This document shows, piece after piece, positions 25,411 to 39,168 of a stretch of DNA of 64,000 bases. The DNA comes from Actinotalea endophytica (GTDB lineage Bacteria; Actinomycetota; Actinomycetes; Actinomycetales; Cellulomonadaceae). Below the pieces are notes generated by a model. The model searched no databases, was not told where the DNA came from, and worked only from the letters and a program-made list of their open reading frames with translations. Location of the stretch: assembly GCF_025717005.1 (NCBI RefSeq), contig NZ_JAOVZU010000006.1, positions 202,925 through 266,924 on the forward strand. The letters run 5' to 3'. A program made the position numbers and the translations under genes. Numbering within the stretch: position 1 is the stretch's first letter; each line of letters opens with the position of its first letter.

Positions 25411-26538
25411 TCAGGCTTCGATGCGCTTGCCGGTCGATGGGGCGAACATGTGCTCCTCGCCCTTGCGGATCGTCACCGAGACGGTGTCGCCCTTCATCGG
25501 CACCGACCGGGGGTCGACCCGGACGATCACCTGGTTGTCGCCCGCCCCGGAGTGGATCTCAGCCCCCGGAGCGATCGGGTCGGTGATGGTGCCGTAGACG
25601 AACGCGTCGGAGCCCAGCTCCTCGACGAGGTCCACCTTGACGTGGAACGACTCCGGGTGGTCCTCCTTGGACAGGTCCAGGGACTCCGGACGGAAGCCGA
25701 TCGTGATCTGGCGGTTGTCCTCGGCGGTCAGCTTGTCGAGGGCCGCGCGCGGCATCGGCAGCCGGCCGGCGCCGAGGATGGCGTGGTCGCCGTCGATCCG
25801 GAAGTTGCCGATGTTCATCGCGGGCGAGCCGATGAAGCCGGCCACGAAGACGTTCTGCGGGGTGTCGTACAGGTCACGCGGGGTGCCGACCTGCTGCAGG
25901 ATGCCGTCCTTCAGCACGCAGATCCGGTCACCCATCGTCATGGCCTCGGTCTGGTCGTGGGTGACGTAGACCGTGGTGACGCCGAGCCGGCGCTGCAGCG
26001 AGGCGATCTGGGTGCGGGTCTGCACGCGCAGCTTCGCGTCGAGGTTCGACAGCGGCTCGTCCATCAGGAACACCTGGGGCTGGCGCACGATCGCGCGGCC
26101 CATCGCGACACGCTGGCGCTGGCCGCCGGAGAGCGCCTTCGGCTTGCGGTCGAGGTACTCGGTGAGGTCGAGGATCTTCGCGGCCTCCTCGACACGCTTG
26201 CGGATCTCGGCCTTCGGGGTGCCGGCGATCTTCAGCGCGAAGCCCATGTTGTCCGCGACGGACATGTGCGGGTAGAGCGCGTAGTTCTGGAAGACCATGG
26301 CGATGTCACGGTCCTTCGGCTGGACGTCGGTGACGTCCCGGTCGCCGATCAGGATGCGGCCCGCGTTGACGTCTTCGAGGCCTGCGAGCATCCGCAGCGA
26401 GGTGGACTTCCCGCAGCCCGACGGGCCGACGAGGACGAGGAACTCGCCGTCGGCGATCTCCAGGTCGAGCGCGTCCACCGCGGGACGCTCGGTCCCGGGA
26501 TACACCCGGGTTGCCTTGTCGTAGGTGACAGTAGCCAT
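25411..26538 (-). CDS. ugpC: Sugar ABC transporter ATP-binding protein, UgpC/MsmK type
   Basis: A 375-residue ATPase of the CUT1 sugar-importer family. It has Walker [10 protein letters not shown], signature LSGGQRQRVAMGRA, Walker B FLMDEPLSNLDAKLR and a switch His in YVTHDQTEAM. A C-terminal TOBE/MOP-like regulatory region follows (residues 240-375). No binding protein or permease lies nearby, so it is probably the shared ATPase for several sugar importers, as MsiK is in Streptomyces. The ATG at 26538 has AGGGAACGAC upstream. It is bounded by a strong terminator. Confidence 0.9.
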   Translation of the reverse strand: MATVTYDKATRVYPGTERPAVDALDLEIADGEFLVLVGPSGCGKSTSLRMLAGLEDVNAGRILIGDRDVTDVQPKDRDIAMVFQNYALYPHMSVADNMGFALKIAGTPKAEIRKRVEEAAKILDLTEYLDRKPKALSGGQRQRVAMGRAIVRQPQVFLMDEPLSNLDAKLRVQTRTQIASLQRRLGVTTVYVTHDQTEAMTMGDRICVLKDGILQQVGTPRDLYDTPQNVFVAGFIGSPAMNIGNFRIDGDHAILGAGRLPMPRAALDKLTAEDNRQITIGFRPESLDLSKEDHPESFHVKVDLVEELGSDAFVYGTITDPIAPGAEIHSGAGDNQVIVRVDPRSVPMKGDTVSVTIRKGEEHMFAPSTGKRIEA

Positions 26539-26747
26539 GTCGTTCCCTCCACCGGCAGGTACGTGCCGGACGATCCGAGTAGAGGACGGAGGGCAGGTCA
26601 ACCTCGGTGTTCCGATTCTGGACACTGCAGGTGGCCGGCCCCCGCGCCGGCGTCGACGACGCCACGGCCATCCTGCCATACGCGCCCGGGGTCCTGTAGG
26701 GGCGGTGGCGGACCAGGTCGAGCGGCCGGGCGGTCCGACCCGCACGG
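26539..26747. other. Intergenic region between otsB and the ABC ATPase gene
   Basis: A 209-base gap. It must contain the promoter of the minus-strand ATPase gene and the end of the otsAB transcript. No clear hairpin, operator palindrome or small gene is visible. Confidence 0.5.
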
Positions 26748-27536
26748 TCAGGCGGCCGCGGCGTCCAGGAGGTCGGCGAACCGGTGCAGCGTCTCGGCCA
26801 TCGCGTCGGTGTCCGCGACCCGGTGCTCGGCGATCGACTCGCCGTCGCCCACCCGGATCCCGACGTCGCCCGGGGCGAGCGTCGCGAGCGCGCGCTCGTC
26901 CGTCACGTCGTCGCCGGCGAACAGCACGTGCCGGACCTCGAGCGCGTCGCGCAGCGCGCGCAGCGCGTCGCCCTTGGTGACCGTGAGCACGGAGAGCTCG
27001 ACGATGTCGCGGCCGGTCATCACGTCGACGTCCGGCCGATCGCCGAGACCGCGCGCCAGGCCCGCCAGCCGGTCGGCCGTCGCGGGGTCGACCCCACGGG
27101 TGTGCAGCACGGCCGTGGTGGGCTTGACCTCGACCCGCGCGGTGGTGCCGGCCGCCAGGTCCCGCAGGCCCGCGGCGAGCTCGTCGAGCGTCGCGGCCCG
27201 GGCGTCGTCCAGCACGTGCGGCTCGCGCTCCAGGCGGCGGTGCCACGTGCCCCGCTCCGCGCCATGGCTGCCGACCAGGATCGTGCCGTCCGGCGGCTCG
27301 GCGACCGCAGCGAGATCGCCGAGCCCGCGGCCCGAGACGAGCGCGAGGTGCACCCGCGGGGCGTGCACCAGACGCGCCATCGCCGCAGCGCCCCGCGGCG
27401 TGGGCCTGGACTGCGAGGGCACGTCGACCAAGGGCGCGAGGACGCCGTCGAAGTCCAGCGCGACGAGCACGTCGTCACCGGCGCCGGCGGCCTCGGCCAA
27501 CCGTGCCAGAGCGGCGTCGAGAGCCTCCGGGCTCAT
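26748..27536 (-). CDS. otsB: Trehalose-6-phosphate phosphatase
   Basis: A 262-residue HAD-superfamily phosphatase that converts trehalose 6-phosphate to trehalose. The nucleophile motif is VALDFDGVLAPL (residues 25-36) and the metal-site motif is FAGDDVTDERAL. VSGRGLGDL and a lysine in VTKGDALRAL complete the HAD signature. The start overlaps the otsA stop by four bases (ATGA), so OtsA and OtsB are co-translated. Confidence 0.94.
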   Translation of the reverse strand: MSPEALDAALARLAEAAGAGDDVLVALDFDGVLAPLVDVPSQSRPTPRGAAAMARLVHAPRVHLALVSGRGLGDLAAVAEPPDGTILVGSHGAERGTWHRRLEREPHVLDDARAATLDELAAGLRDLAAGTTARVEVKPTTAVLHTRGVDPATADRLAGLARGLGDRPDVDVMTGRDIVELSVLTVTKGDALRALRDALEVRHVLFAGDDVTDERALATLAPGDVGIRVGDGESIAEHRVADTDAMAETLHRFADLLDAAAA

Positions 27537-28948
27537 GCGTCCCTCGCGAACGCGGGCTGCACCGCGGTCCCGGCGAGCGCCTCCAGGAAGCCGGTCGACC
27601 ACTTCGCGACGTCGTCGGTCAGCACCCGGCGCCGCAGCCGCCGCATCCGGGAGCGGACCTCGCGCGGCGCCATGGTCACCGCGCGTTCGATCGCGGACTT
27701 CAGGCCGTCGATGTCGTGCGGGTTGACCAGCAGAGCGCCGCTCAGCTCGTCCGCGGCGCCGGTGAACTCCGAGAGCACCAGCACCCCTCGGTCGTCGACG
27801 CACGCGGCGACGAACTCCTTCGCGACCAGGTTCATGCCGTCCCGCAGCGAGGTGACCAGCATGACGTCCGCGGCGGAGTACAGCGCGACCATCTCCTCGG
27901 GCGGGTAGGAGTGGTGCAGGTAGTGGATCGGCTGGCTGCCGATCCGCCCGTGCTCGCCGTTGATCCGCCCGACCAGGACCTCGACCTCCTCGCGCAGCTG
28001 CTGGTAGGCCTCGACGTTCTCCCGGCTCGGGCTGGCGACCTGTACGAACGCGGCGCCCGGCACGTCCAGCCGACCCTCGTCGAACAGCTCGCCGACAGCC
28101 TTGATCCGGTGCCGGATGCCCTTGGTGTAGTCCAGCCGGTCCACGCCGAGCAGGAGCACCTCCGGGTCGCCGAGGTCCGCACGGATCTCCGCAGCCCTGG
28201 CCCGCAGCCACGGGGAACGGGCGAGCTCGTCGAACCGGCGGGAGTCGATCGAGATCGGGAACGAGCCGACCCGGATGGAGCGCCCGTCGGGCATCGACAC
28301 GGTGCCGCCCCGGACCGCGAGGTCGGTCCAGCGGCGGGTGACGCGCAGGAAGTTCGAGGCGTCGCCGGAGCGCTGGAACCCGATCAGGTCCGCGCCGAGC
28401 AGGCCGTGGATCACCTGGGTGCGCCACGGGAGCTGGGCGAACAGCTCCAGCGGGGGGAACGGGATGTGGTGGAAGTACCCGATCCGGACGTCGGGCCGCA
28501 GCTCGCGCAGCATCGCCGGGACCAGCTGGAGCTGGTAGTCGTGCACCCACGCGGTGCCGCCTGGGGCCACCTGGGCCGCAGCCGCCTCGGCGAACCGCCG
28601 GTTCACCCTGCGGTAGGCGTCCCACCAGTGCCGGTGGTAGACGGGCGGGCTGATCACGTCGTGCGACAGCGGCCAGAGGGTGTCGTTGGAGAAGCCCTCG
28701 TAGAAGTCGGCGACCTCTTCCTCGGACAGCCCGATCGGCACGAGGTGCATCCCGTCGGCGTCGAACGGGGCGGGAGCCGGGCCGGGTGAGCCGGGCCAGC
28801 CGACCCAGGCCCCCTCGGCCCCTTGCATCACGGGCTCCATCGCGCTGACCAGGCCGCCGGGCGAGCGCCGCCACGAGGTCGATCCGTCCGGTTCGGTGCT
28901 GAGGTCGACAGGTAGTCGGTTGGCCACCACGACGAGCGGGTAGGTCAC
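27533..28948 (-). CDS. otsA: Trehalose-6-phosphate synthase
   Basis: A 471-residue GT20 retaining glycosyltransferase that joins UDP-glucose (or ADP/GDP-glucose) and glucose 6-phosphate. It has VVVANRLPVDL at the N-terminus, TAWVHDYQLQLVPAML, GVDRLDYTKGI and VTSLRDGMNLVAKEF. The GTG at 28948 is chosen because the strand leading to NRLP starts directly after it. Trehalose serves osmotic and desiccation protection. The upstream neighbour is a divergent Ser/Thr kinase gene. Confidence 0.95.
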   Translation of the reverse strand: MTYPLVVVANRLPVDLSTEPDGSTSWRRSPGGLVSAMEPVMQGAEGAWVGWPGSPGPAPAPFDADGMHLVPIGLSEEEVADFYEGFSNDTLWPLSHDVISPPVYHRHWWDAYRRVNRRFAEAAAAQVAPGGTAWVHDYQLQLVPAMLRELRPDVRIGYFHHIPFPPLELFAQLPWRTQVIHGLLGADLIGFQRSGDASNFLRVTRRWTDLAVRGGTVSMPDGRSIRVGSFPISIDSRRFDELARSPWLRARAAEIRADLGDPEVLLLGVDRLDYTKGIRHRIKAVGELFDEGRLDVPGAAFVQVASPSRENVEAYQQLREEVEVLVGRINGEHGRIGSQPIHYLHHSYPPEEMVALYSAADVMLVTSLRDGMNLVAKEFVAACVDDRGVLVLSEFTGAADELSGALLVNPHDIDGLKSAIERAVTMAPREVRSRMRRLRRRVLTDDVAKWSTGFLEALAGTAVQPAFARDA

Positions 28949-31381: not shown

Positions 31382-31882
31382 ATGAACGAACCCGTTGTGT
31401 CCCGATGGGCACGGACCCAGCCGTGGGTGTCGACGCTGCTGCGGCTCGTCCTGGCCGGGGTCTGCCTGTGGGCGGGCCTGGCCAAGGTGGGCGACCTGCC
31501 TGCCAGTGTCCGTGCGGTCCGGGCCTTCGAGCTGCTGCCCGAGGCCCTGGCCAAGCCTGTCGGCTACGGCCTGCCCGTCCTGGAGATCGCGCTCGGCGTG
31601 CTCCTCCTGGTCGGGCTGCTGACCCGCTATGCGGCTGCGGTGGTCGCTCTGCTGATGGTGGCCTTCATCATCGGCATCTCCGCCGCCTGGGCTCGTGGCC
31701 TCGCGATCGACTGCGGCTGCTTCGGCGGCGGCGGACCGACCGAGCCCGACCAGACCCAGTACCCGCTGGAGATCTTCCGCGACCTCGCGATCGCCGCCGG
31801 TGCGGTGTTCCTGGTGCGGTGGCCCACCTCCCGCTTCTCCCTCGACCAGACCCTCGGCCTCGTCGTCCCCGACGAGGCCTGA
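31382..31882 (+). CDS. MauE/DoxX family redox membrane protein
   Basis: A 166-residue integral membrane protein with four hydrophobic segments. It has the MauE/DoxX-like motif LAGVCLWAGLAKVGDLP and a vicinal-type cysteine motif DCGCFGGGG near residue 115. MauE-like proteins are thought to exchange disulfides across the membrane. The gene directly precedes a DsbA-like thioredoxin-fold protein (15-base gap), so the pair probably forms an oxidative or isomerising disulfide system. ATG at 31382. Confidence 0.85.
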   Translation: MNEPVVSRWARTQPWVSTLLRLVLAGVCLWAGLAKVGDLPASVRAVRAFELLPEALAKPVGYGLPVLEIALGVLLLVGLLTRYAAAVVALLMVAFIIGISAAWARGLAIDCGCFGGGGPTEPDQTQYPLEIFRDLAIAAGAVFLVRWPTSRFSLDQTLGLVVPDEA

Positions 31883-31897
31883 CCCGGAAGGAATCCC

Positions 31898-32764
31898 ATG
31901 TCCTCCTCACCGAAGGACCGCCGCGAAGAGGCGAAGGCCGCCGCGGCCGCCCTCAAGTCGCAGCAGGCGAAGGCCGCTGCGCGCCAGCGCACCATCGCGA
32001 TCGCCGCTCTGGTGGTCGGGCTCGTCGTCGTCGGCGTGCTCGTCGCCGTGATCCTCAACAACGGCAGCAAGGGCGGCTCGGCCGCCGCGACCGGCGACCA
32101 GGTCACGCCTGCCTCCGTCTCGACCCGGGGCGGCGTCGTGTTCGACAGCACCGGGCTGCTCCAGCCCGGTGCGGACGCACCGGGTGAGGACGGCGAGCTC
32201 GGCACCGCGGACGACCTGGTGTGGCCGCAGAGCCTGGCCGCGTCCGGCGGCCCCGTCGTCGTGAGCGTCTACTTCGACTTCATGTGCCCGTGGTGCGGGT
32301 ACTTCGAGCAGACCCAGGGCGCCACGCTCGACAAGCTGCTCGCGTCGGGTGACATCGTCATCGACTCGCACCCGATCGCGATCCTCGACCGCTACTCGAA
32401 CGGCACGAACTACTCCAGCCGGGCCGCTGCGGCCGCGTTCGCGGTCGCCGAGGGGTCCCCGGAGCACTACTTCGACTTCGTCGAGGCGATGATGGCCGAC
32501 GGCACGCAGCCCGAGGAGAACAGCGACGGCCTGACCAACGCCGAGATCTCGGCGATCGCCGCCGGCGTCGGCGTGCCGCAGGAGGTTCTGGACCAGATCG
32601 AGTCCGGTGCGTTCGTCGACTACACCGCGACCGCGACCGACCTCGCCTCGCAGGACCTCGGTCAGCTCCAGACACCGACAGTGCTGCTCAACGGCCAGCA
32701 GATGACCGAGAACTGGACCGAGGACGGCGTCCTCGAGCAGGCGATCGAGGCCGCGAAGGGCTGA
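31898..32764 (+). CDS. DsbA-like thioredoxin-fold protein
   Basis: A 288-residue membrane-anchored extracytoplasmic thiol oxidoreductase. An Ala/Lys-rich N-terminus precedes one membrane helix (IAALVVGLVVVGVLVAVIL, residues 29-47). The thioredoxin fold has a CPWC active site (DFMCPWCGYFE) and a cis-Pro segment in QLQTPTVLLNGQ. It belongs to the DsbA family (thioredoxin_4). It is partnered with the preceding MauE-like gene. The transcript ends at the hairpin at 32780. Confidence 0.9.
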   Translation: MSSSPKDRREEAKAAAAALKSQQAKAAARQRTIAIAALVVGLVVVGVLVAVILNNGSKGGSAAATGDQVTPASVSTRGGVVFDSTGLLQPGADAPGEDGELGTADDLVWPQSLAASGGPVVVSVYFDFMCPWCGYFEQTQGATLDKLLASGDIVIDSHPIAILDRYSNGTNYSSRAAAAAFAVAEGSPEHYFDFVEAMMADGTQPEENSDGLTNAEISAIAAGVGVPQEVLDQIESGAFVDYTATATDLASQDLGQLQTPTVLLNGQQMTENWTEDGVLEQAIEAAKG

Positions 32765-33220: not shown

Positions 33221-33628
33221 ATGCCCATCAGCCGTCGCAAGTCCGCTGCCATCGCCCTCGCCGTCCTCGGTGTCGCCGGCCTCTCGCTGGCCAGCGCGTC
33301 GACCCTCGACCTCACCGGCGGCACCGTGCAGGCCGGTGTCACCGACCTCACCGACTGCCAGACCAGCGGTGACATCACCATCGGCTTCGGAACCCCCGGG
33401 TTCGCCGGTGGCTCCTACGGCGTCAGCTCGGTCGTGCTCCAGGACGTCGACGCCGCGTGCGCCGGCAAGGCCGTCCGCGTGACCCTCCTGGACGACGCCG
33501 GTTCACCGGTCGCCGCCGAGCTCACCACGACCGTCGCGTCCCCGTTCGCCGGTGGCGACGTCAGCCTGACCAGCGCCGCGGTCGCCGCCGCGTCGATCTC
33601 GTCGGTCGCCGTGGTCATCTCCGACTGA
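33221..33628 (+). CDS. Small secreted protein, SASxL-signal family (paralogue A)
   Basis: A 135-residue exported protein of unknown function. The signal segment VLGVAGLSLASASTLDLTGG lacks a classical AXA site and resembles the SipW-dependent type. The mature part is predicted to be beta-rich, with cysteines at 46 and 80, a GSYGVSSVVL strand, DVDAAC, and a terminal strand SSVAVVISD. The same plan and the same 34-residue Cys spacing recur in the proteins at 34302 and 36903. It lies 29 bases upstream of the signal peptidase gene, its probable processing enzyme. Confidence 0.7.
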   Translation: MPISRRKSAAIALAVLGVAGLSLASASTLDLTGGTVQAGVTDLTDCQTSGDITIGFGTPGFAGGSYGVSSVVLQDVDAACAGKAVRVTLLDDAGSPVAAELTTTVASPFAGGDVSLTSAAVAAASISSVAVVISD

Positions 33629-33657
33629 CCGGACCCGCACTTCGGCCAAGCCCGGCG

Positions 33658-34263
33658 ATGACCGCCACCGAGGCTCCCGCAACCGGCGCAGGACTCCTGC
33701 GCCGGTTGCGGCGTCACGCCGGTGACGCGCTGTTCCTGGTCACGGCCCTGGTGGTCGGCTGGTTCCTGTGGCCGACGTCGCTCGGTGGCTGCACGACCCT
33801 GACGATCGTCTCCGGTCACTCGATGGAGCCGACGTACTACACCGGGGACCTCGTGGTCGCGCGGTGCGGCGGCTACCAGGTCGGCGACATCGTCGTCTAC
33901 AACCCGCCGGACGTCGGTGAAGCCCGGGTGATCCACCGGATCGTCGGCGGCGACGCCGCCGAGGGCTGGGTCATCCAGGGCGACAACAACGACTTCCTCG
34001 ACCCGTGGCAGCCGACCGACGAGCGGATCCTGGGCCGGGCCGTGCTGCACCTGCCGAAGGTCGGCCTGGTCGGCACCGTGCTGGTCAGCCCGATCACCTG
34101 GGTGTCGCTGCTGCTGGTCGCGGCGGCCCTGGTGATCTGGCCGTCGAAACCTGAACCCGAGGTGGACGCCGCGCTTCCCGACGGCGGCGCGTCCCCGCCG
34201 ACGGAGGGCGACGAACCGGACCCGGAGCGCGACGTCGCGCCGCACCCGGCCGACGTCGTCTGA
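33658..34263 (+). CDS. ER-type (SipW-like) signal peptidase I
   Basis: A 201-residue membrane serine peptidase of the S26B branch. The catalytic Ser is Ser55 in VSGHSMEPTYYTGDL. The position occupied by Lys in normal bacterial enzymes is His93 in VIHRIVGG, as in SipW, eukaryotic and archaeal signal peptidases. QGDNNDFLDPW supplies the Asp residues. It has an N-terminal membrane helix (residues 25-42) and a C-terminal one (residues 140-157) plus an acidic tail. Flanking secreted paralogues on both sides are its likely substrates. Confidence 0.9.
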   Translation: MTATEAPATGAGLLRRLRRHAGDALFLVTALVVGWFLWPTSLGGCTTLTIVSGHSMEPTYYTGDLVVARCGGYQVGDIVVYNPPDVGEARVIHRIVGGDAAEGWVIQGDNNDFLDPWQPTDERILGRAVLHLPKVGLVGTVLVSPITWVSLLLVAAALVIWPSKPEPEVDAALPDGGASPPTEGDEPDPERDVAPHPADVV

Positions 34264-34301
34264 CCCCCGCGGTCCCTCAGCCCCTGATACCTGGAGCCCC
34301 G

Positions 34302-34730
34302 ATGCCTCGCCTGCGACCCACCCGGCGCGCCGCTGCGCTGGCGTTCGCGGTGCTGGGCCTCGCCGGGCTCTCGGCGGCCTCGGCGTCCCAGCTTGCGGTG
34401 GACGGCGGGACGATCCAGTCCGGCGTCGGCCTGGTGGTGGACTGCCAGCCCGCCGGGACACCGATCCGGGTCGAGCTCAGCAGCGCCTTCACCTCGGGCG
34501 CCTACCGGACCACCGGCGTCCGGTTCAGCGGCGTCGACGAAGCGTGCGACGGCCTCCGCTTCCGGATGCAGCTGATCAGCACCACCGGGACCGTGATCGA
34601 CATCGACCCGTCGACCTCCGCGACCGACGTCGGGGGCAGCGTGGGGCTCGCCGGGGGCGTGTTCACCGTGCCGGTGCCGAGCACTCCCACGACCTCGATC
34701 GGGACCGTGGCGCTGGTGGTGACCGACTGA
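34302..34730 (+). CDS. Small secreted protein, SASxL-signal family (paralogue B)
   Basis: A 142-residue exported protein. Its signal VLGLAGLSAASASQLAVDGG closely matches that of paralogue A. Cysteines at 48 and 82 have the same 34-residue spacing, with GAYRTTGVRF, GVDEACDG and the terminal strand GTVALVVTD. This points to a small disulfide-stapled beta-sandwich. The ATG at 34302 lies 38 bases after the peptidase gene, and the stop overlaps the next gene (TGATG), so the genes form one operon. Confidence 0.7.
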   Translation: MPRLRPTRRAAALAFAVLGLAGLSAASASQLAVDGGTIQSGVGLVVDCQPAGTPIRVELSSAFTSGAYRTTGVRFSGVDEACDGLRFRMQLISTTGTVIDIDPSTSATDVGGSVGLAGGVFTVPVPSTPTTSIGTVALVVTD

Positions 34731-35578
34731 TGCGCGGCATCACCGTACGGCGCCGAGCGGTCGTGGCCGCGCTGACGGCGCTCGCCGCCGCGGGCATGGT
34801 GACGGCGTCGGCCTCCGCCCTGGACGTGTCCGGCGGGACGCTCTCCGCGTCGAGCGTCGGGCACCCGTGCCCGGGCACCGCGCTGGCGTCACCGGTCGGT
34901 TCGACGGACTGGTTCAACCCCGGTTACGCGGGCCTCCAGGTCACGCTGCCCGAGGGCTGCGCAGAAGCGACCGTGGACGTCACCGTGCTGTCCGGCAGCA
35001 CCGTGGTGGCCCAGGGCGCCGGCACGGTGGACGGCACCGCGACCGTGGCGACCGACCTGTTCACCGACCCGGACGTCACCGTGCAGGCGACCGTCGACGG
35101 CTGGGCCCTCCGGGTGGCGTACTCGTACGTCCCGCCGGCCACGTGCACCGTCACGGCCGGCTCGGGGACCTGCGACGCGACCGTGACGGTGTGGACCGGC
35201 CAGCGGCCGGGCGGATCGTCATCGGCCCTCTACTTCGACGTCTGGGTCACCACGACCTCGAGCTCGTGGCTCACCTGGGAGGTCACGTTCGACCTCGGCA
35301 ACCCGTACTACGGCCAGACCGTCACCAGGCTCGGCAACTCCGACCTGGACTCCTACACCGACGCCGTCACGACGTGGTCGCAGGGCGGCTACGTCAACGA
35401 CGTCCACCGGACGAGCGACTGCTCCGCGCTGCCGTCGCTCACCGTGGCCGGCGACACGACGAGCCGGAACAACAACCGCGACTTCGCGGTGGTGCGGGCC
35501 GGTCGCGACCGCTTCTTCTCGCTCGTGGTCAACCGCACCGAGACCGGCTACGACGACGTCCTGACGCCCGGCTGCTGA
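34730..35578 (+). CDS. Secreted two-domain protein of the same family (paralogue C)
   Basis: A 282-residue exported protein coupled to paralogue B. The signal region AAAGMVTASASALDVSGGT fits the family. The first domain keeps a Cys pair (47, 77). A second domain from about residue 136 (ATCTVTAGSGTCDATVTV) ends with further cysteines. The WLTWEVTFDLGN segment recalls a carbohydrate-binding CBM2-like sandwich, but this is only an impression. It may display a binding or adhesive domain on the cell surface. It ends the plus-strand operon starting at 33221. Confidence 0.65.
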   Translation: MRGITVRRRAVVAALTALAAAGMVTASASALDVSGGTLSASSVGHPCPGTALASPVGSTDWFNPGYAGLQVTLPEGCAEATVDVTVLSGSTVVAQGAGTVDGTATVATDLFTDPDVTVQATVDGWALRVAYSYVPPATCTVTAGSGTCDATVTVWTGQRPGGSSSALYFDVWVTTTSSSWLTWEVTFDLGNPYYGQTVTRLGNSDLDSYTDAVTTWSQGGYVNDVHRTSDCSALPSLTVAGDTTSRNNNRDFAVVRAGRDRFFSLVVNRTETGYDDVLTPGC

Positions 35579-35631
35579 CCGAGCCCGCGATCGGGCGACG
35601 GCCGCGCGGGCGGGCGGTACGACCGGCGCCC

Positions 35632-36495
35632 TCAGCCGGGTTCGACGGGCTCCAGCGCCGGGCGCTTCGCGCGGCGCGTGTCGCCCGAGGAACGGCCGCG
35701 CAGGCGGCGGGTGGCCCACGGGTACGCGTGGTCGCGCAGCCACACGGCGTCGGTGCGCACCTGCTGGCTGCGCGGCAGGCCCGGCAGCGGTGTCAGCGGG
35801 TCGTCCCATCGTTCGTCGTCCGGCTCCAGGCCGAGCGCCACCAGGGCCGCCTGCGCGACGCGGCGGTGCCCCTCGGTGGTGAGGTGGATGCGGTCCGGTG
35901 CCCACATCCGCCAGTCGCGCAGCGACCGCATGCCCCACACATCGACGACGTACGCGCCGTGCCGGCGCGCGATCGTCCAGATGTTCGCGTTGAGCACGCC
36001 GGTACGGCTGCGGGTGTGCCGCACGACCGGGCTGTCGTGGGTGTCCATCCCGGTGGCCAGCAGGACGTCCGCGCCGGTGGCCCTGACCTGGACGACCGCC
36101 TCCTCGAGCAGCGCGCCGAGGGCGTCCGGGTCGCCGTTGGGCCTCAACAGGTCGTTGCCGCCGCCGATCACGCTGACCAGATCGGGTTCCAGCCGGAGGG
36201 CGGCGGGCACCTGGTCGCGGACGATGGGACCGAGCAGGCGTCCGCGGATCGCCAGGTTCGCGTAGGTCACCGGGGTGTCGGAGGTGTGGTCCGCCCTGGC
36301 CGCCAGGTGCCCGGCGAGCAGGTCGGCCCAGCCGCGGCAGACCAGGGCCGGGTCGGTCGTCGTGGTCCGTTCGGGTGGGGCGGCACCGGGGACGTCCCAC
36401 AGGCCCTCGGTGAACGAGTCCCCGACGGCGACGTACCGCCGCCAGGCCGGGGTCCGGGGTGTGGCATCCGAGTGGCGCGATCGGGTGATTCCCAC
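35632..36495 (-). CDS. SGNH/GDSL-type hydrolase
   Basis: A 287-residue esterase or acyl hydrolase of the SGNH superfamily. Block I is VAVGDSFTEGL with the nucleophile Ser, the block III Asn is in GGGNDLLRP, and the Asp/His of block V is in PDRIHLTTEGH. No signal peptide is seen, so it is probably cytosolic. The GTG start at 36495 is chosen for GGAGGTGAT eight bases upstream; the conserved YVAVGDSF begins near residue 19. It is divergent from the riboswitch-led gene. The substrate is unknown. Confidence 0.85.
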   Translation of the reverse strand: MGITRSRHSDATPRTPAWRRYVAVGDSFTEGLWDVPGAAPPERTTTTDPALVCRGWADLLAGHLAARADHTSDTPVTYANLAIRGRLLGPIVRDQVPAALRLEPDLVSVIGGGNDLLRPNGDPDALGALLEEAVVQVRATGADVLLATGMDTHDSPVVRHTRSRTGVLNANIWTIARRHGAYVVDVWGMRSLRDWRMWAPDRIHLTTEGHRRVAQAALVALGLEPDDERWDDPLTPLPGLPRSQQVRTDAVWLRDHAYPWATRRLRGRSSGDTRRAKRPALEPVEPG

Positions 36496-36902
36496 GCCGC
36501 AGATCACCTCCAACACGCACAGGTCGGGACGAACCGGGCGCTTGCGGACCTGGACGCGACCGACGCCCTCGGTCATCCTGTTCATGTCAGCGACAAACGG
36601 CAAACCCACCGTGAGGTGGGGACGCAAAGCCACGGGACCCTCCGGGTCAGCCGGGCCACCGAACGACAGAGGATCGACCATGAGGGCACCTCGGGGCTCA
36701 GCTCCCCTTCCCACCCGTGAGGCACGCATGACGCGTGCCCGGGGTGCGGCGTGCCGCGGTCCCATCAGGAAGGGGACCACGCTCCCGATCTGACGGGAGA
36801 AGTACTGCCCCGACACCGCAGGATGCGCGACCGGGGCACGACCGGAGGGCACGGACGTCCGCCGGAGCAGCACCCGGGAGCGGGACCCACGGAGGGGGAC
36901 AC
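36496..36902. other. Intergenic region carrying a c-di-GMP riboswitch
   Basis: A 407-base gap between the divergent SGNH hydrolase and secreted paralogue D. It contains the class I c-di-GMP aptamer at 36585-36668. A perfect seven-base-pair hairpin follows (GGCACGC/GCGTGCC, 36721-36739), along with other GC-rich stems before the GTG at 36903. No small gene is supported. Confidence 0.75.
36585..36668 (+). ncRNA. Cyclic di-GMP-I (GEMM-I) riboswitch
   Basis: The class I aptamer core is clear. GGCAAACC is at 36599-36606. Stem P2 is CCCACC/GGTGGG with a GTGA GNRA tetraloop at 36605-36620. ACGCAAAGCCAC is at 36622-36633. P3 is GACCC/GGGTC at 36636-36648, followed by AGCCGGGCCACCG, and P1 closes with TGTC/GACA. 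The element lies 235 bases before paralogue D, with hairpins between as a possible expression platform. It should make that secreted protein responsive to c-di-GMP. Confidence 0.9.
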
Positions 36903-37313
36903 GTGAGCAGCGCGAGCACTCGTCGGGCCACAGCGGTGGCCCTTGTCGTGATGGCCTTGGCGGCCGTCCCGACGGCGAACGCTCTCGGCTCCGGTCTGTC
37001 CGCACCCGGTCTGCTCATCGGCAGCTCCGCTGCGGATCCGTGCGGGAGCTCTGCGATCGAGGTCGACTACGACCTCGCCTATGACGTCGAGCTCGGTGGA
37101 TACGGGGTGAGCGCCGCCTGGTTGTCGGGACTGGACGAGCGCTGCCAGGGATACGACGCGATCGTCTCCCTCAACGGGCCCGGGGGGGCGCCGTTGGCCG
37201 AGATGACCACCGAGATCGATGCGACGCGGGTACGCGTCGTGGTACCGGCGGCCACGCCGGTCGCTGCTGAGCAGCTCACGGGGGTGAGCGTCGTGCTCAG
37301 AGGAGGGGCCTGA
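36903..37313 (+). CDS. Small secreted protein, riboswitch-controlled (paralogue D)
   Basis: A 136-residue exported protein. The signal segment [20 protein letters not shown] is followed by the family plan: cysteines at 47 and 81 (34-residue spacing), [18 protein letters not shown], and terminal strand [11 protein letters not shown]. The GTG start at 36903 has GGAGGGGGAC. It is the only gene on this strand after the c-di-GMP aptamer. It is convergent with ung and separated from it by the GC homopolymer tract at 37333. A matrix or adhesion role is inferred. Confidence 0.7.
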
Positions 37314-37317
37314 CCCC

Positions 37318-38051
37318 TCATGCGGTTGACGTGGCGGCGCCCCCCCGGGGGGGGGGGGGGGCGGGGCGCGGGCCGCGGGGCGGGCCCCCCGCCGCGGCGG
37401 GGGGGGCCGCGGCGCGAGCAGCGCGTCGACGCGGGAGAAGGGCCGTGAGCCGAAGAACCCGCGGGCGGCGGACAGCGGGCTCGGGTGCGGGCTCGCCACG
37501 GCAGGCACGCCGCGCAGCACGGGCCGCAGCTCCTGCGCCTGGCTGCCCCAGAGCACCGCCACCAGCGGGCCGCCGCGCTCCACGAGGGCCTCGACCGCGC
37601 ATGTCGTGACCTCCTGCCAGCCGAGGTCACGGTGTGACGCGGGGGTCCCTGCGCGCACCGTGAGCACGCGGTTGAGCAGCAGGACGCCCTGCTCGGTCCA
37701 CGGGGTGAGGTCGCCGTTCGGCGGGGGTGGGCAGCCGAGGTCGGCGGACAGCTCGGTGAAGATGTTGACCAGCGAGCGTGGCACCGGTCGCACGTCCGGC
37801 GCCACCGAGAACGCGAGCCCGACGGCGTGCCCCGGCGTCGGGTAGGGATCCTGCCCGACGACCAGCACCCGGACCTCGGACATCGGCCGGGCGAACGCCC
37901 GCAGCACGGCGTCGCCCGCAGGCAACCACGCCCGGCCGGCGCCGTTCTCCGCGCGGAGCGCGTCCCCGATGCGTCGCAGCGTGGGCTCGACGGGTGCGAG
38001 GGCCTCGGCCCAGTCGGGCGCCATGATCTGGTCGAGTGGCTGGCGTGGCAC
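37318..38051 (-). CDS. ung: Uracil-DNA glycosylase with corrupted C-terminus
   Basis: Family 1 uracil-DNA glycosylase, which removes uracil from DNA in base-excision repair. The water-activating motif [18 protein letters not shown] and the leucine-loop segment [20 protein letters not shown] are intact. The recognisable sequence stops after SRVDALLA (about residue 212). The expected short C-terminus is replaced by a Pro/Arg/Ala-rich translation of the G/C tract. In the unshifted frame no stop occurs before the neighbouring gene; a shift would end at 37318. A sequencing or assembly error is more likely than a true mutant. ATG at 38051. Confidence 0.85.
37333..37417. repeat. G/C-only homopolymer tract, possible assembly artefact
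   Basis: This stretch is pure G/C. It includes seven C followed by 15 G (37340-37361) and an eight-base G run at 37399-37406. Such runs occur nowhere else in the window. The tract lies between convergent genes and destroys the end of ung. Confidence 0.7.
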
Positions 38052-38520: not shown

Positions 38521-39168
38521 GTGAGGTCGGCCGACTACCCGTATCCCCCAGACGAGTTCGACGCCGCCGCGAACGCCGGCGGACCGCGCGGCGTGCACCG
38601 CACACCGCGCTCCACGTGGAGCCGGTGGTGGCCGTGGCTCGTCGCTCTCATCGTCTTCCCTGCGCTCGCGTTCGTCGCGGTGACGCTGCTGTCCGGCGGG
38701 ACCCTGTTCGGGTTCGGGATCGGCGCGTCGGGCTCCGAGTCGTCGTCGACGTCGGCCACGAGCACGGCGACCGAGTCGGCGACCGAGTCGGCGACCGAGA
38801 CGCCGACCGAGACCGCCACCGAGACGCCGACCGAGACCGCCACCGAGACGCCGACCGAGACCGCCACCGAGACGCCGACCCCCGAGCCCGACCTCGCACG
38901 CACGGTGCGGATCGACAACGCGACGACGACCTCGGGCCTTGCCGGTGGCGCGCGTGACGTGCTCGAGGCGGACGGGTTCACCGACGTGTCGACCGGGAAC
39001 TGGAGCGGCGCCGACGTCGGCACCTCGGCCGTCTTCTACCCGACGGCCGAGGACGTCGGCACCGCGGCCCGGATCGCCGAGACGCTCGGCATCACCCGGG
39101 TCGAGGAGAACGCGGACCTCGCCGGCGACGTGGTGCTCGTGGTCCTCGAGGCGGACTACACGCCCTGA
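38521..39168 (+). CDS. LytR C-terminal domain membrane protein
   Basis: A 215-residue protein with a cytoplasmic Pro/Tyr-rich N-terminus, one membrane helix (WPWLVALIVFPALAFVAVTL), and a Thr/Glu-rich external linker encoded by 24-base repeats. The LytR_C domain follows (VRIDNATTTSGLAGGARDVL). Stand-alone LytR_C proteins are found in actinobacteria and may act in the cell wall. The GTG at 38521 follows a leaderless -10 box. The repeated TETATETP linker could vary in length between strains. Confidence 0.82.
   Translation: MRSADYPYPPDEFDAAANAGGPRGVHRTPRSTWSRWWPWLVALIVFPALAFVAVTLLSGGTLFGFGIGASGSESSSTSATSTATESATESATETPTETATETPTETATETPTETATETPTPEPDLARTVRIDNATTTSGLAGGARDVLEADGFTDVSTGNWSGADVGTSAVFYPTAEDVGTAARIAETLGITRVEENADLAGDVVLVVLEADYTP
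38794..38880 (+). repeat. 24-base tandem repeat encoding TETPTETA
   Basis: Three exact copies of a 24-base unit beginning ACCGAGACGCCG, plus a partial fourth, encode the Thr/Glu/Pro linker of the LytR_C protein. Confidence 0.85.

Follow-up and report, generated by a model that had tools for sequence, protein, structure and literature searches.

An S26B signal peptidase module in Actinotalea endophytica with a class I c-di-GMP aptamer and a candidate gating leader before one secreted paralogue

What does a class I aptamer for cyclic di-GMP (c-di-GMP) do beside a signal peptidase and a small family of secreted proteins? This question is raised by a locus of Actinotalea endophytica, which belongs to the Cellulomonadaceae, a family of soil bacteria. 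The locus lies in a 64-kb stretch of DNA, here called the window, that is part of a 4.25-Mb genome in 20 contigs. The genes, the peptidase and the aptamer of the locus are real and conserved. As a whole, they are best explained as an export module built on an S26B signal peptidase, joined to a leader open reading frame (ORF) that c-di-GMP would switch and that would gate the secreted paralogue P4; our judgement leans towards this explanation by a narrow measure. The features are listed below in window coordinates.

33221..33628, plus strand: P1, a small secreted paralogue of 135 residues with two Cys, recognized by homology and synteny and modelled as a beta-sandwich.
33658..34263, plus strand: S26B signal peptidase (endoplasmic reticulum (ER)/archaeal type, Ser/His) of 201 residues, recognized by TIGR02228 and by alignment to SEC11C.
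34302..34730, plus strand: P2, a small secreted paralogue of 142 residues with two Cys, recognized by alignment to P1.
34730..35578, plus strand: P3, a longer secreted protein of 282 residues with six Cys, weakly paralogous in its N-terminal part, with a start codon that overlaps the stop codon of P2 (TGATG).
35632..36486 (start approximate), minus strand: SGNH/GDSL hydrolase (Lipase_GDSL_2, E 1.1e-24), a neighbour judged not to be a member.
36589..36664, plus strand: c-di-GMP class I aptamer, recognized by RF01051 and RF03167.
36680..36793, plus strand: leader ORF of 37 codons with a Shine-Dalgarno (SD)-like AGAGG, 14 nt 3' of the aptamer, recognized by comparison of P4 leaders.
36794..36902, plus strand: spacer of 109 nt from the leader stop to the P4 start, analysed by folding, with the P4 SD near its end.
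36903..37313, plus strand: P4, the aptamer-linked secreted paralogue, 136 residues with two Cys, recognized by homology and by its aptamer.

The aptamer scores 61.2 bits against RF01051 (c-di-GMP-I; gathering threshold 35), and thus the class I riboswitch that a preliminary description of the window had placed before the last paralogue stands. It also passes RF03167 (c-di-GMP-I-GGC) with 59.1 bits against a threshold of 59, and the label "GGC" came to it through the Rfam overlap rule as the name of the nearest model. We take this name to refer to the base equivalent to A47, which is G in the RF03167 consensus and A in the aptamer of the window; as the differing base is the canonical A, a variant for a different ligand is ruled out, and the aptamer is, by its sequence, a canonical c-di-GMP-I despite the Rfam label. 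Mapped by Vc2 numbering, which we presume to carry over to these aptamers, A47 is kept in 79/79 aptamers inspected (one of them by eye, the other 78 by script), A47 and C92 together in 15/15 P4 leaders, and G20 in 14/15 P4 leaders by script; that of the window was read by eye, the script having caught an upstream motif. PMC4744006 gives all three, G20, A47 and C92, as bases of c-di-GMP-I that contact the ligand. The genome holds 30 GGDEF matches, so c-di-GMP is likely made in the host.

The link to c-di-GMP, as far as sequence can carry it, is real for P4 only. P4 is found in 14/19 Actinotalea genomes, with an RF01051 match just upstream in 14/14. When 28 paralogue regions of other genera were scanned against Rfam, a c-di-GMP aptamer came over threshold only in G022 (G and L numbers are our labels for genomes and loci). 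In G001 and G026, P4 lies between the SGNH and UDG genes with no aptamer, so that aptamer and leader seem to have been gained later. Control of the whole system by c-di-GMP, as first proposed, is therefore not what the locus suggests, since the aptamer precedes P4 and not the peptidase operon, and 1/28 regions of other genera carry it.

Nor does the aptamer adjoin P4 itself. The start codon next to it belongs to the leader ORF, which argues against the direct control that had been assumed. An ATG with an SD-like motif follows the aptamer by 11-14 nt in 15/15 P4 leaders (14 Actinotalea and G022); in 14/14 of the Actinotalea leaders it opens an ORF of 23-43 codons, and P4 begins 185-238 nt further on. 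The relative frames of leader and P4 differ between species, and the leader is thus not an N-terminal extension of P4. A start at such a distance is the habit of the genus: RF01051 has 85 matches there, 14 before P4 and 71 elsewhere, and in 62/64 of the non-P4 aptamers examined (64 of the 71) the start codon of an ORF of at least 40 codons lies 6-22 nt downstream; of the remaining two, one has a start at 42 nt and the other has none. The leader stop lies 95-126 nt before P4 in 14/14 (mean 110.7, standard deviation 6.9), a distance less variable than the length of the leader itself (72-132 nt, standard deviation 17). In 2000 sets of dinucleotide shuffles, a mean of 1.33/14 stops fell at 90-130 nt, with a maximum of 7 and never 14, a result that overstates the significance and is no strict probability because the species are related and not independent. 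The other two frames served as controls, and neither is grouped at 95-126 nt: in the +1 frame the first stops cluster shortly after the start of the leader (13/14 of them 181-233 nt upstream of P4), and in the +2 frame they are widely scattered.

The spacer that follows has a tendency to fold. Across the 14 leaders, its first ~80 nt, folded as single sequences, are more stable than shuffles, with mean z-scores of -1.39 at +5, -0.92 at +20 and -1.75 at +35 after the leader stop. Windows within the leader gave -0.25 to -0.51, and those close to the start of P4 gave -0.08 to -0.29.

We propose the following. The module would be a surface-protein export system of the Cellulomonadaceae, in which an S26B signal peptidase serves dedicated small beta-sandwich proteins, P1 and P2, and the longer P3; in Actinotalea, a single paralogue, P4, would have turned c-di-GMP-responsive. 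Binding of c-di-GMP by the aptamer would alter access to the SD directly 3' of it, which starts the leader ORF of 23-43 codons and not P4. Depending on whether ribosomes reach the end of the leader, which lies about 110 nt upstream of P4, P4 would be made or not, the gate being a structured spacer that is kept open or a premature termination that is prevented. P4 would in this way be added to, or withheld from, P1, P2 and P3, and c-di-GMP would change the composition of the surface. From the anatomy of the leaders, we infer leader translation and its gating of P4; c-di-GMP probably switches leader translation, in one direction or the other, and leader translation in turn P4.

Several observations weigh against this proposal. 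In G022, which is of another genus, the leader extends over 111 codons and overlaps the first 52 nt of P4. The leader peptide shows no coding constraint: in the one equal-length leader pair above 60% identity, codon positions 1, 2 and 3 differ 1, 4 and 3 times, and in 6/7 pairs compared, divergence in the leader equals or exceeds that in the spacer. A conserved leader peptide is thus unsupported, and if the leader matters, it is translation as such that matters. P4 has a good SD of its own (AGGAGGG type) and could therefore be translated independently. The predicted accessibility of the SD behind the aptamer, with a mean unpaired fraction of 0.41 in the 14 P4 leaders and 0.48 in 63 others, does not separate ON from OFF and is uninformative as a guide to either state. 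In the spacer alignment, RNAalifold found no conserved structure (z -0.3) and no covariation support, so that a conserved attenuator helix is unsupported and the gate may be a hairpin, Rho or coupling.

Two other readings of the aptamer and leader are to be considered. First, control of P4 by the aptamer may be direct, either because the P4 start is sequestered at long range or through a leader terminator, the leader ORF being an untranslated coincidence or the remnant of a copied cassette. We hold this to be rather unlikely, though it is the most serious competitor. It would account for a leader peptide free of coding constraint and for a structured spacer, and an aptamer-SD-ATG cassette could be copied whole where a start at that distance is the rule of the genus. 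However, the SD-like motif and the ATG are kept in 14/14, and the in-frame stop holds its distance from P4 despite the change in leader length; by eye, no U-tract follows the spacer hairpins, and covariation lends nothing to a common spacer structure. Second, there is a slight chance that the regulated product is a small protein encoded by the leader ORF, and that P4 has a separate promoter within the spacer, as aptamers elsewhere in the genus directly precede genes for proteins of 47-61 residues (21/64), yet those proteins look conserved across species and the leader peptide does not, the stop-to-P4 distance is near-constant, and P4 tracks the aptamer in 14/14.

The 64 aptamers away from P4 are of interest in their own right. 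By sequence pattern, they precede 26 BldC-like genes, 21 genes for small proteins (47-61 residues), 14 large genes, 2 other small genes and, in 1 case, none. Genes for BldC-type regulators stand directly behind class I aptamers at L001 and L004 in the genome of the window and at 24 more places; one such protein was checked and matched NF033787 with 101.6 bits. The small proteins mostly carry the pattern "...VPPQVLARWAA...LPxQ...", with one locus in the genome of the window (L002, G000:C1:77964-78038) and 20 further loci; two members had no NCBIfam or Pfam match at E<=1, and by eye the protein may be a shrunken relative of BldC. At L197 (G150) and L206 (G135), the aptamer directly precedes a protein that we take, from its motif, to resemble EAL phosphodiesterases, a possible feedback on c-di-GMP. 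The genus survey thus also places c-di-GMP aptamers before BldC-type regulators and an unnamed conserved small protein, and no open-licence PubMed Central (PMC) paper joined BldC, riboswitch and c-di-GMP.

The peptidase scores 58.2 bits against TIGR02228 (cut-off 51.85) and aligns with SEC11C (E 1.4e-4) across the S-M-E-P, H-R and G-D-N-N motifs, with Ser and His kept; the ER-type Ser/His signal peptidase of the preliminary description is thereby borne out. In the strict sense, it is not SipW-like: against the SipW equivalog NF046067 it reaches 25.6 bits with a cut-off of 190 bits. A second S26B gene of the genome, ~175 kb before the window, adjoins a PF12389 (TasA/camelysin) protein (31.9 bits, cut-off 22.5; L012, G000:C17 near 27449-27952) that has a SipW-type signal as judged by eye but not by any NCBIfam signal model. 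As this TasA-like pair is located elsewhere in the genome, the module is a separate, non-TasA system. The genome also has a gene that we presume, from its motif, to be LepB-like (L013).

Peptidase and paralogues travel together. A three-row paralogue profile, searched over 150 genomes of the family, found paralogues in 40, two of them weakly (G009, G100), and for the 39 genomes other than that of the window 40 regions were fetched. An S26B gene is present in the paralogue region in 35/39 genomes, or 36/40 when that of the window is counted. Placed by its midpoint, the S26B gene falls between paralogues in 23/37 S26B-bearing regions (counting the window) and to one side of them in the other 14, counts that rest on a blastp cut by which weak paralogues may be missed. 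S26B matches are widespread in the family (117/150 genomes), so it is adjacency and not presence that counts as evidence there. Of the four genomes with no S26B in the region, G022, G119 and G026 are represented by short contigs or contig ends. G119 has an S26B match on another contig and no P1 was found, and P4 may occur there on its own or the assembly may be broken. Among 17 Actinotalea genomes compared, each of the 12 with paralogues has an S26B match at E<=4.3e-13; of the five without, G050 and G143 have weak S26B matches only (E>=1.7e-5) and G089, G125 and G130 have none. Likewise, the five of 19 Actinotalea genomes that have no P4 also have no strong S26B. Co-conservation of peptidase, paralogues and riboswitch, on which the preliminary description had staked its case, thus holds inside the genus.

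The SGNH gene, whose membership had been left uncertain, does not belong to the module. It occurs in 17/19 Actinotalea genomes, and in 3/5 of those that have no module it is the direct neighbour of UDG. It stays where the module is gone, and is thus a fixed neighbour.

It is very improbable that the peptidase lies next to the paralogues by chance, within a conserved block, and that P1-P4 are cut by the ordinary signal peptidase: the wider block (DsbA ... SGNH-UDG-DUF3263-GroEL) is indeed conserved synteny, the P1 signal ends in an ordinary-looking A-S-A with a LepB-like gene presumably at hand, and G038 bears a paralogue with no S26B in the fetched region of a long contig, and of these points the A-S-A end and G038 also tell against our proposal, yet within the genus S26B and the paralogues are gained or lost jointly while SGNH and UDG remain, and S26B is in the region of most genomes that bear paralogues.

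P1, P2 and P4 are full-length paralogues (P2 39% and P4 28% identical to P1) with one invariant Cys pair in common, and a search of the genome with P1 (E<=1) gave four matches, every one in the module locus. P3 resembles P1 weakly and in its N-terminal part alone (E 0.023). The proposed family of four small Cys-pair proteins is therefore reduced to three, with P3 a longer and weakly related member. The atypical signal ascribed to all four is likewise present in three, as P4 is by eye without the "SAS ... GGT" signature. The AlphaFold model of P1 (23 rows; mean pLDDT, the predicted local distance difference test, 78) is a confident beta-sandwich from about residue 50, and its first 45-50 residues, to which the conserved segment behind the signal peptide belongs, are of low confidence; such an N-terminus may fit a strand-donating subunit, and equally any flexible N-terminus. 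The P3 model is poor (pLDDT 71, six rows). Foldseek gave no match at E<=0.001 for either model, and the weak matches of P1 were assorted immunoglobulin-like and carbohydrate-binding domains. None of 23 P1/P2/P4 members matched PF12389 at E<=0.1, and P3 had no match to it at E<=1; searches of Pfam, NCBIfam, PDB sequences and Foldseek gave nothing above threshold for TasA homology. The best sub-threshold family matches were SecDF_P1_head (6/23 members, best E 0.0029) and the S-layer model halo_surf_glyco (1/23, E 0.0014).

P1, P2 and P4 would be processed by this peptidase, and they may function at the surface or in a biofilm matrix. In the tapA-sipW-tasA operon of Bacillus subtilis, an ER/archaeal-type signal peptidase is likewise encoded with secreted beta-sandwich proteins, and according to PMC9674648, TasA forms a fibre by strand exchange. 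In P1, a conserved N-terminal segment lies beyond the modelled domain and would fit such an exchange as well. The two systems differ in that the module paralogues match no PF12389, the peptidase is far under the SipW equivalog cut-off, the substrates P1, P2 and P4 are of 135-142 residues with a Cys pair and by eye no TasA-type signal signature, and the Actinotalea genome has a separate S26B gene beside its PF12389 protein. A bolder version of our proposal is doubtful, in which the riboswitch acts solely through a sequence-indifferent leader ORF and adds P4 to a new non-TasA fibre of S26B-processed, Cys-paired, strand-exchanging P1 and P2, P3 being a special subunit at its tip or base.

For the regulatory part, the P4 aptamer and its ligand-contact positions are those of the class I riboswitches of RF01051 and RF03167, but what stands directly behind the aptamer is the start codon of a leader ORF and not that of a structural gene. 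The nearest parallel is ppe2 of Mycobacterium tuberculosis, where a riboswitch-controlled upstream ORF (uORF) is needed for PPE2 expression, according to PMC11260477; in both actinobacteria an aptamer, a uORF and the main gene follow one another, an order known here from sequence anatomy. At ppe2 the ligand is B12, whereas the P4 aptamer is of the c-di-GMP class, and the uORF overlaps ppe2 (AUGA) with no SD for ppe2, whereas the leader stop lies 95-126 nt upstream of P4, which has its own SD. No open-licence PMC paper joined Actinotalea with c-di-GMP or Cellulomonas with a c-di-GMP riboswitch, and none joined "SipW-dependent", Actinobacteria and signal peptidase; three such papers mention c-di-GMP-I-GGC, one of them within a list of families, and the papers on uORF and c-di-GMP among the matches listed there were, by title, reviews or RNA-discovery surveys. 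If the proposal is true, dedicated S26B export would not be confined to TasA but would also serve a separate family of substrates in high-GC Gram-positives, and a c-di-GMP riboswitch would signal through a leader ORF. The near-uniform layout of aptamer and start in the genus makes the leader model testable with simple reporters.

A few neighbouring features of the window may be added. Upstream of a tRNA-Thr and the module, a MauE/DoxX-like gene and a DsbA-like thioredoxin gene (31382-32764) form a pair that could oxidize the Cys pairs, yet in relatives it is more distant from the module. Between P4 and the ung gene lie long G/C runs (37338-37415), and the ung frame continues without a stop through the complement of P4, which reflects an unusual terminator or else an error of assembly. 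Further on (38521-39168), a LytR_C-domain protein carries a Thr/Glu repeat stretch. An msiK RNA match of 56.3 bits lies on the minus strand at 26537-26594.

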